Virus record (IMG/VR): IMGVR_UViG_3300034141_000007
Coordinates: 1-23,308 of that record
Strand: one strand, 5' to 3'
DNA length: 23,308 nucleotides
DNA from: a virus
The notes under the pieces were generated by a model. The model made no database searches and was not told the origin of the DNA. It saw only the letters and a program-made list of their open reading frames with translations. Shown in pieces: positions 3-5,002 of this stretch. The translations under genes were made by a program, and so were the position numbers. The first letter of the stretch is position 1. Every line of letters begins with the position of its first letter.

Positions 3-584
3 ACTAACTTCAACTTCCGCACGGTTAAAGATGCTAAGACTGGTATCGAAACTAAGCGTCCTACTGTTGCACTGCCAGTACCAGTTCCAAGTCTGGAAGG
101 TATCGTAGAGATTCTTTCTAAGGGTCCAGGTAAAGAAGTTGATCTGCTGGTTGAAGCAGTAACCGCAGTAATTCTGGAACAAGCTCGTGAATATATCAAT
201 GAGCATGAAGAAGTTAATGCTGATAACTTCCCATATGAAATGCTGTCGTGGGAAACGATTGCTAATCTGCCTAAAGCTGAGCGTCGTGGCGGTGGTATTA
301 GCAAGGAAGTTTGGGAAGACTTTGCTAAGGACTATGTTGAAGTTATGCCGGGGGTTACTGGTAAGAAGAAAGAATCTGTTGAAATGGCAGCTAAGGTGTT
401 TGTTGCTAAGTTCGCAGGTGCTACTACCAATAAGCCAGTACTGAAACTGTTGCAACAGCAACTCGCAGTGTATGCATCGAATACTACGCAGGGTGAACAG
501 TTCGCACCTTGCATTGAATTCTTGATGAACAAGTTGGAGAAGCTGCTGAACACGGATGAAACCAATCTGCTGTTGGCACTGTAA
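3..584 (+). CDS. Unknown phage protein, 5' end outside window, codon-adapted
   Basis: An open frame runs from the left edge to TAA at 582-584, so the N-terminus is missing; about 193 residues are visible. I do not recognise the family. The protein is soluble-looking, Lys/Glu-rich, with a mostly helical-looking C-terminal half ending in a Leu-rich helix (MNKLEKLLNTDETNLLLAL). Codon use differs from most of the window: every Arg codon is CGN, no Ile codon is ATA, and Leu is mostly CTG, as expected for a strongly expressed gene. It is followed by the structured non-coding stretch and the tRNAs. Its high expression would suit a stoichiometric DNA-binding protein, but nothing in the sequence demonstrates that. 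The reading frame is certain; the function is unknown. Confidence 0.85.
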   Translation, partial: TNFNFRTVKDAKTGIETKRPTVALPVPVPSLEGIVEILSKGPGKEVDLLVEAVTAVILEQAREYINEHEEVNADNFPYEMLSWETIANLPKAERRGGGISKEVWEDFAKDYVEVMPGVTGKKKESVEMAAKVFVAKFAGATTNKPVLKLLQQQLAVYASNTTQGEQFAPCIEFLMNKLEKLLNTDETNLLLAL

Positions 585-615
585 TAAATAGTATTGTTGG
601 TGTTGCCGCTGGTTT

Positions 616-766
616 GCTAGTTCCCAGTTCGTGGAAATAACTAGCATTAGGTTTATTCAGTTCAATTAAAACTAGACTTCGAGCGCTAGTCTGAATAAGC
701 CTTCTTATAGATGGCCTGATATGACATGTTCATATTTCCTGCAAATTAGTAGGAGCCATCTATAAG
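616..766 (+). ncRNA. Candidate structured RNA of three consecutive stem-loops before the tRNAs
   Basis: The 188-base gap between the first gene and the first tRNA has no convincing ORF but holds three adjacent inverted repeats. Stem 1: GCTAGTT 616-622 with AACTAGC 639-645 (7 bp), with CCA/TGG inside. Stem 2: GGTTTATTCAG 650-660 with CTGAATAAGCC 691-701 (11 bp, one G-U), enclosing ACTAG 671-675 with CTAGT 686-690. Stem 3: CTTATAGATGGC 704-715 with GCCATCTATAAG 755-766 (12 bp, perfect). Inside stem 3 two hairpins, 719-723/731-735 and 737-740/751-754, make a three-way junction. The tRNA begins 6 bases later. I found no clear promoter. It may be a separate small RNA, a processing signal or a 3'-end stabiliser of the upstream mRNA; the stems are seen, the role is inferred. 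Confidence 0.45.
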
Positions 767-772
767 ATCAAT

Positions 773-849
773 GTCCTCTTAGCTCAGCTGGTTAGAGCAA
801 CCGACTCATAATCGGTAGGTCCTGTGTTCAAGTCACAGAGGGGATACCA
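773..849 (+). tRNA. tRNA with anticodon CAU (Ile2 reading AUA, or Met)
   Basis: A full cloverleaf can be drawn. Acceptor 773-779 pairs with 839-845; the D arm starts GCTC at 782. The anticodon stem ACCGA/TCGGT holds loop CTCATAA (anticodon CAT). The T arm is CTGTG/CACAG with loop TTCAAGT. Discriminator A846 is followed by encoded CCA. A CAU anticodon is either Met or, after lysidine modification by host TilS, Ile2 reading AUA. The anticodon arm looks like bacterial tRNA-Ile2, and AUA is common in most genes here, so Ile2 is favoured; Met is not excluded. Confidence 0.93.
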
Positions 850-852
850 AAT

Positions 853-927
853 GTCACCGTAACTTAATGGATAAAGTAGGGGACTTCTACTCCCTAGATG
901 TGGGTTCGATTCCTACCGGTGATACCA
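853..927 (+). tRNA. tRNA-Arg, anticodon UCU
   Basis: A full cloverleaf can be drawn. Acceptor GTCACCG 853-859 pairs with CGGTGAT 917-923. D stem ACTT/AAGT; anticodon stem GGGGA 879-883 with TCCCT 891-895 around loop CTTCTAC (anticodon TCT at 886-888). T arm GTGGG/CCTAC with loop TTCGATT; A924, then encoded CCA at 925-927. It reads AGA (and AGG) codons, which are frequent in most plus-strand genes here. Only 3 bases separate it from the preceding tRNA, so the two are probably co-transcribed and processed. Confidence 0.95.
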
Positions 928-965: not shown

Positions 966-1223
966 ATGCCCTCCATTGATAACAAGTACAGTGAAATATG
1001 GAAGAAATTAAAAGAGGATGGCCATGTAACATTGGCTGTTCCGATTCCGATCCAGAAAAGATTACTGCTTGCAATGAAGAATATTAAGCATCGTGATATA
1101 GTGTTTAAATTAGAAGCTGAAACAAGGAAAAAGAAATACGTGCTGTATAGTAAAAGAGAACAGGCGAGAATTAAATTAATACTAAGAGAGAAAGATGATA
1201 TCTTTCAACATCTAATTGGGTAG
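966..1223 (+). CDS. Small basic unknown protein
   Basis: An open frame of 85 residues starting MPSIDNKYSEIWKKLK. It is very rich in Lys and Arg, with a charged C-terminal half (EAETRKKKYVLYSKREQARI) that looks helical and could bind nucleic acid. The frame stays open upstream to an ATG at 867, but that start lies inside the Arg tRNA, so 966 is the first plausible start. No good ribosome-binding site precedes 966, which leaves the start uncertain. The stop is 11 bases before the next gene. No family recognised. Confidence 0.6.
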   Translation: MPSIDNKYSEIWKKLKEDGHVTLAVPIPIQKRLLLAMKNIKHRDIVFKLEAETRKKKYVLYSKREQARIKLILREKDDIFQHLIG

Positions 1224-4055: not shown

Positions 4056-5002
4056 AACTATCACAAATGCAAGGAACAATAGAACAGCGAGTCTGTCTAT
4101 TCGGTCCTCCTAAAGTAGGTAAGACACTTCTTGCTGGTATGCTGGCAAAGAAGTATAAGCTACTAGTATTCATGCTAGAAAATGGGCACAGTGTACTGAC
4201 TCAAGTACCTGAAGAATTCCATGATCGTATTGAAATCATTGTTATCAGGGACAGTAAAGACTATCCAATTGCAATTGAAACAATGCTTAAGGTTGTGAAA
4301 GGTAAAGAAGTATTTATCTGTCATAAGCATAGTAAAGTAGCTTGTCCAATATGCAGTAAAAATTGTCCTGATGCTCGTGATAGAATCTGTCTTGATGAAG
4401 TAGGTCTTGATACTATTGTGATCTATGACAGTCTTACACAGCTTACTCAATCAGCACTTGCACATATTACTAAGTCTCAACCTGATGATTACAAGTGTCA
4501 GCTTGATGATTGGGGTAACTTAAAACTGCTGATGGAAAAATTCATGAGTGCTATTCAAGTAGCTACTTATAATTGTGTAGCAATTAGTCATGAAGAGGAA
4601 GTTAAATTTGAAGACGGTAGAACTAAGATTGTACCAGTTGCTGGAAGTAGTAACAGCAGCCGCAATACTGCTAAGTATTTTGACCATGTTGTATATTGCA
4701 ATGTAGTGAATAAGAAGCACGTAGTTGGTAGTGCTACAGATTACAGCACTAGTGTACTCACAGGTTCTAGAACTAATGTAAAACTGGAAGCTAATAAAGA
4801 AGGTGGTGATCTGCTGGAGATATTCACTAATTGGAAGCTGCCGAATTTTGGAATGAAGATTACAGAAGATGTAACTAAAATTGACATTCCAAATGAAGGT
4901 ACTCAAGCTCAAGTAATAGCAAATATAAAAGCAGCAGAAGCTGAAGTAGTTAAATCTCCTGCACAGATCGCACTTGATAATCTTAGAAACAAGGTGAAAT
5001 GA
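4052..5002 (+). CDS. Sak4/RecA-like P-loop ATPase, recombination
   Basis: 316 residues, AGGAG upstream. Walker A is GPPKVGKT at 18-25 and Walker B TIVIYDS at 121-127 (D126); SHEEEV (179-184) follows a beta strand where RecA-like ATPases carry a sensing residue. Overall it fits the AAA_24/Sak4 phage family of RecA-like ssDNA annealing ATPases. Between strands 2 and 3 is an insert with C90, H91, H93, C98, C101, C105 and C113, probably a zinc-binding knuckle. The C-terminus is a helical tail. With the Cas4-like nuclease it probably forms a recombination or repair pair. The ATPase class is firm; the recombinase role rests on family knowledge. Confidence 0.85.
   Translation: MKLSQMQGTIEQRVCLFGPPKVGKTLLAGMLAKKYKLLVFMLENGHSVLTQVPEEFHDRIEIIVIRDSKDYPIAIETMLKVVKGKEVFICHKHSKVACPICSKNCPDARDRICLDEVGLDTIVIYDSLTQLTQSALAHITKSQPDDYKCQLDDWGNLKLLMEKFMSAIQVATYNCVAISHEEEVKFEDGRTKIVPVAGSSNSSRNTAKYFDHVVYCNVVNKKHVVGSATDYSTSVLTGSRTNVKLEANKEGGDLLEIFTNWKLPNFGMKITEDVTKIDIPNEGTQAQVIANIKAAEAEVVKSPAQIALDNLRNKVK

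Follow-up and report, generated by a model that had tools for sequence, protein, structure and literature searches.

The window analysed here is the whole stretch of 23,308 nucleotides from a viral record (IMG/VR IMGVR_UViG_3300034141_000007). It opens with the 3' part of a gene, here called gene A, which is followed by a structured gap, two tRNA genes and a small gene, gene B (Table 1). Neither gene A nor the ORF containing gene B matched Pfam or PHROG, and only tRNA matches, or none, were returned when the first 2 kb and gene A were used as queries against an annotated phage collection. Relatives of gene A were present among viral contigs, and its neighbourhood is a replication and recombination gene cluster. 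The AlphaFold model of the gene A protein from the sister phage (L001) was confident (pLDDT 88). Its comparison with the PDB gave no match at E <= 0.001, beside one unnamed viral match and HU-like matches that were weak only. A PF00940 RNA polymerase search was also without match, but its positive controls were silent too. The original prediction had described the gene upstream of the gap as strongly expressed. Consistently, the full gene A ORF of the sister phage showed the lowest ENC of 36 ranked genes (33.1, the strongest codon bias; 37.0 for the major head protein), which suggests that gene A may be highly expressed.

Table 1. Features of the gene A-gene B region (positions in the window).
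Feature	Position	Strand	Remarks
gene A, 3' part	3..584	+	function unknown; synteny with structured gap and gene B in 78/82 distinct relatives
module 1, H-type pseudoknot	609..646	+	S1 fully paired in 9 relatives whose placement relied on position or sequence
S1 of module 1	609-612 (CTGG) with 624-627 (CCAG)		
S2 of module 1	615-622 (TGCTAGTT) with 639-646 (AACTAGCA)		
loop 3 of module 1	628-638		A-rich at its end
module 2, long hairpin	649..702	+	pairs 649-660 with 691-702, encloses an inner hairpin; L001 has other letters at the same position
module 3, three-way junction	703..767	+	outer helix 703-715/755-767; inner hairpins 718-736, 737-754
tRNA-Met (CAT)	773..849	+	
tRNA-Arg (TCT)	853..927	+	
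gene B, small protein, unknown	966..1223	+	conserved downstream border of structured gap; homologue after gap in 78/82 relatives

The gap was far more structured than expected by chance. The 163 nt from 610 to 772 reached a minimum free energy of -57.2 kcal/mol (z = -6.45), and none of 200 shuffled sequences was equally stable, so the view that the stretch is too organised for a spacer was borne out. The same gap in the sister genome (-52.2 kcal/mol) was the most stable among the listed 120-nt stretches with z below -3.8. Three adjacent stems had been predicted, and all of them were found in place: stem 1 (616-622 with 639-645, 7 bp), stem 2 (12 bp including one G.U, thus 11 Watson-Crick pairs) and stem 3, whose length is 13 bp here rather than 12. 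The two hairpins described inside stem 3 were also present (718-724 with 730-736, and 737-742 with 749-754), and the stems abut as described, shortly before tRNA-Met. No family at or above the gathering threshold was found by Rfam 15 in 616-767, tRNA being matched only outside that stretch, which agrees with the earlier statement that no known RNA family is recognised. Among openly licensed papers we found no description of this element. A consensus scan of 500-1000 detected neither a sigma-70-type promoter (other promoter types were outside the scan) nor a terminator-like site (loops of 3-8 only), which argues against the independent small RNA that had been offered as one possibility. TATAAGAT was considered as a promoter and rejected, as the promoter scan gave no match.

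By itself, stem 1 does not form a stable simple hairpin, as 585-650 folded no better than shuffled sequences (z = -0.5). The bases just 5' of stem 1 pair with its loop, and an H-type pseudoknot beginning at 609, 24 nt downstream of the gene A stop codon, describes the stem better. Across 14 sequences with 11 distinct arm pairs, every one of the 56 S1 cells was paired. When the 3' arms were shuffled whole, a mean of 36 cells was paired and none of 2000 shuffles reached 56. Because five of the 14 sequences had been picked by the pairing descriptor itself, the clean evidence comes from the nine that were located through their position or sequence (the window, L009, L015, L016, L017, L001, L043, L027 and L005), all of which were fully paired. 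The loop helix S1 is thus kept by compensatory change, the kind of change that the original prediction had proposed to look for among relatives. With S1 and S2 interleaved in this way, module 1 has the predicted features of an H-type pseudoknot.

The structure was not limited to the window. We collected 82 distinct loci with gene A, and gene B came next in 78 of them. In these 78, the median gap length was 289 nt and the fold z had a median of -3.7. Helices with 9 or more Watson-Crick pairs numbered 108, versus 18-24 in each of five shuffled sets. Pseudoknots of strict geometry occurred in 37 of the 78 gaps (8.75 expected; at most 14 in 20 shuffles) and in only 6 on the reverse strand; some pseudoknots were 100-370 nt away from the stop codon. 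Among the helix irregularities, G.U outnumbered A.C by 34 to 9 in the real gaps, compared with 29 to 27 summed over the shuffles. Such a bias would be expected for RNA of the gene A strand and not for a DNA hairpin, and therefore it is the gene-A-sense RNA strand that matters. These results indicate that the gap structure is real and under selection as RNA.

The comparison with the sister phage showed how this structure is kept. Its gene A is 98.3% identical to that of the window, and module 3 together with tRNA-Met is 94% identical, but 590-702 could not be aligned. Nevertheless, a pseudoknot and a stem 2 peculiar to the sister phage lie at the corresponding places; the letters of stem 2 are wholly replaced between the two phages (98% identical), and the helix is still perfect. 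The modules drift and move between phages as cassettes, presumably because the fold matters more than the letters. What had been taken for a single compact noncoding RNA is therefore an array of three separate exchangeable modules (pseudoknot, long hairpin and branched stem), which swap separately.

Module 2 keeps its place next to module 3. Among 12 relatives having TCTTATA and a TATAAGA arm, a helix of at least 7 bp ended 0-1 nt from TCTTATA in 11, and the helix was at least 8 bp in 10; when positions in these gaps were drawn at random, 14% had a helix of 8 bp or more. In the one relative left over (L020), the loop exceeds the length permitted in the scan. The adjacent helix reached 12-13 bp in L027 and L043.

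In module 3, the outer helix is constant and the cores inside it are swappable. Its ends, TCTTATA...TATAAGA, are common to the window, L001, L002, L005, L009, L012, L015, L016, L020, L021 and others, including L083/L084. The inner sequence of the window recurs in the sister phage only, and a wider search for module 3 returned only the sister phage and L083/L084. The three-way core of the window is thus represented by two near-identical phages only. The commonest core (six sequences) showed two-sided changes at 8 of 22 predicted pairs. Other cores were also observed. A junction core 'CTGGTAA-hairpin-TCAATGCAGAAATC' lies in a module-3-like stem in the gap after gene A of L005, L043, L027, L055, L061 and L064; its exact pattern was found in 9 viral contigs, and a variant, 'GATGGTAA...GCATAAAAC', in L076, L078 and L080. 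A second core with an invariant TCCTCAGCC loop within a TCTTATAT stem was found in the gaps of L002, L009, L012, L015, L016 and L021. The gaps of L009, L015, L016 and L023 hold a further conserved module, TCCAGATGACTGCGCAT...AAAAAAGATAAGAG, whose 18-base form was present in 4 viral contigs only.

In distant relatives, the first slot after gene A is occupied by a different pseudoknot family, here called family X, with the pattern CTGNNYAN...AAACTGNNCA (S1-C-TGNNYA-N-S1'-..AAAC-TGNNCA). Family X and module 1 are alike in general fold and in slot position. However, module 1 has a 2-nt loop 1 and an 8-bp S2, lacks the X loop letters and does not fit the X frame (CTG..YA. after S1, AAACTG..CA at the end). 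No Rfam match to X was found in the loci scanned. In an alignment of 11 X sequences, 110 of 110 cells were paired, partly because these sequences had been chosen as pseudoknots; two-sided change was seen in 5 of 10 pairs, and the covariation score was 0.542 versus 0.193 after shuffling. Searching the loop frame in the loci scanned without demanding pairing gave 59 distinct sequences, 56 of them with intact S2; among these 56, S1 was paired at 4/4 positions in 45 and at 3/4 in 11, and the fully paired S1 arms were of 22 different kinds. The exact-frame scan matched 38 viral contigs and 3 genome contigs. X lay at most 60 nt from the upstream stop of an ORF with 100 aa or more in 57% of cases, versus 5.5% of random positions. 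Unrelated phages that infect Mycobacterium, Arthrobacter, Synechococcus and Paracoccus carry X behind stop codons, and X stands a few nt past a stop codon in the named phages Labelle, Molivia, S-RIM4 and ParMal1; in Molivia the gene is annotated as single strand DNA binding protein. In Nostoc phage NMeng1, the match is weak (E 0.2) and lies about 100 nt past the preceding gene, just before an annotated pseudo-tRNA. Across viral contigs L146-L183 and L192-L195, from unrelated phages, X repeatedly lies 3' of genes, with several copies per genome. L154 and L167 each carry four distinct copies, and X recurs after several genes of one phage.

Starting from the observed folds, which are conserved as RNA of the gene A strand, and from the modular exchange, the 3' position, the lack of a promoter- or terminator-like match and the codon bias of gene A, we tentatively propose that the array is a 3'-UTR or intercistronic module protecting the gene A mRNA against 3' exonucleases. 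The array would belong to one gene A-(tRNA)-gene B transcript. The polycistronic RNA may be cut downstream, by tRNA 5' processing in this phage and by other endonucleases elsewhere. Modules 1, 2 and 3 would then act as consecutive road-blocks that halt 3'-to-5' exonucleases, which would make the gene A mRNA long-lived and could raise the level of its protein. The siting of X, mostly near upstream stop codons and after several genes of one phage, supports this reading. Against it, a generic road-block leaves the X loop letters and the TCTTATA/TATAAGA ends unexplained, and some pseudoknots are far from the stop codon. In addition, the gap beside the major head gene of the sister phage, which is also strongly biased, was unstructured (z -0.7; one gap tested, on the 5' or 3' side of same-strand neighbour genes). 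Strong expression alone therefore does not call for an array, and the idea that every strongly expressed gene needs one was rejected on this one gap. Among the roles that the original prediction had offered, stabilization of the upstream mRNA fits best; a tRNA link and an independent small RNA were not supported.

In favour of the tRNA link, tRNA-Met begins 6 nt past module 3, and a tRNA start lay within 150 nt of family X in 5 of 56 cases versus 0.9% at random. However, ARAGORN on L001-L006 found two tRNAs in L001 and none in L002-L005 (L006 ends before the gap), and L002 and L005 nevertheless carry the array architecture; the array is therefore not tied to tRNAs, and a tRNA-specific role is unlikely. 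Theta ribozymes, the proposed phage tRNA processors, also work at the 3' trailer (PMC10879173), so we consider a processing guide or spacer for the tRNA pair very improbable. A structured insert (z -3.0) separates the two tRNAs of L001 at 4820-4942 and is absent from the window. Pseudoknot-driven stop-codon readthrough was set aside because gene A ends in a double stop, TAA TAA in the window and TAA TAG in L001. An element acting as DNA, such as replication or recombination hairpins, would agree with the inverted repeats and with the sharp cassette borders at 590 and 702, but it is largely refuted by the strand asymmetry (G.U versus A.C 34:9; pseudoknots 37 versus 6 on the two strands), and its chance is slight indeed. 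A transcription attenuator or processive antitermination element, which would control how far transcription runs on from gene A into the tRNAs and gene B, with module 2 plus the T-rich TCTTATA as a partial terminator, seems unlikely. Module 2 adjoins TCTTATA in nearly all relatives of its class, and in L002 and L003 a hairpin is followed by a real T-run; but the consensus scan (loops 3-8) found no GC-rich hairpin with a following T-run in the window, and attenuation does not need pseudoknots.

The swapping of modules raises the possibility of an arms race. The modules could be decoys that imitate host RNAs, type III antitoxins for example, and neutralize RNase toxins or RNA-sensing defences. 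Type III antitoxins are H-type pseudoknots (PMC5086642), as module 1 is, phage phiTE escapes ToxIN through pseudo-ToxI repeats (PMC3475682), and near-identical phages differ here by cassette replacement. But type III antitoxins come as repeats and the window holds one copy, X keeps the same general fold across phages of very different hosts, and a decoy needs no siting at stop codons; we regard this reading as doubtful. It appears similarly doubtful that the locus, with its exchangeable cassettes of pseudoknots and junctions, is under diversifying selection and acts in trans as counter-defence or host-takeover RNA, with X as its most visible part. Finally, gene A or gene B protein might bind the pseudoknot and regulate translation, like T4 gp32 on its own mRNA. 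Gene A lies within a replication/recombination cluster, X follows the single strand DNA binding protein gene of Molivia, and a gp32 pseudoknot is already known; in T4/T2 it is upstream of gene 32 and represses its translation (PMC3014915). Since that pseudoknot is 5' of its gene and module 1 is 3' of gene A, the gene A model has no confident PDB match, and the letters of S1 and S2 are free to change, such a protein-binding operator is rather improbable.

Phage mRNA 3' ends are poorly described. In this locus, gene order is conserved on both sides of a gap whose fold is kept while its sequence is swapped. Likewise, the compact pseudoknot X follows stop codons with 22 different fully paired S1 helices and has no Rfam match in the loci scanned. 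The question is raised whether pseudoknots serve as mRNA 3' caps in phages.

Compared with known systems, the array lies 5' of the tRNAs and matches no ribozyme family, while theta ribozymes are HDV-like folds 3' of a tRNA. Module 1 and the T4/T2 gene 32 pseudoknot are alike as H-type pseudoknots in phage mRNA near replication/recombination genes; unlike it, module 1 is downstream of a stop codon, 3' of gene A (whose model has no confident PDB match) and about 320 nt 5' of gene B. The small H-type pseudoknots of type III toxin-antitoxin RNAs (ToxI, CptI) and of phage pseudo-ToxI, which occurs in a phage as a mimic, share the fold of module 1. However, ToxI and CptI are repeated arrays matched to a toxin, whereas the pseudoknot here is a single copy of other sequence, and Pfam and PHROG searches of gene A and the gene B ORF identified no toxin. 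Bacterial REP elements and 3'-terminal stem-loops block exonucleases. The array resembles them in its 3'-UTR position, in its polycistronic context and in keeping structure with varying letters, and it differs from them in combining three kinds of element (pseudoknot, hairpin and branched stem), which stand in fixed order and are exchanged as cassettes.
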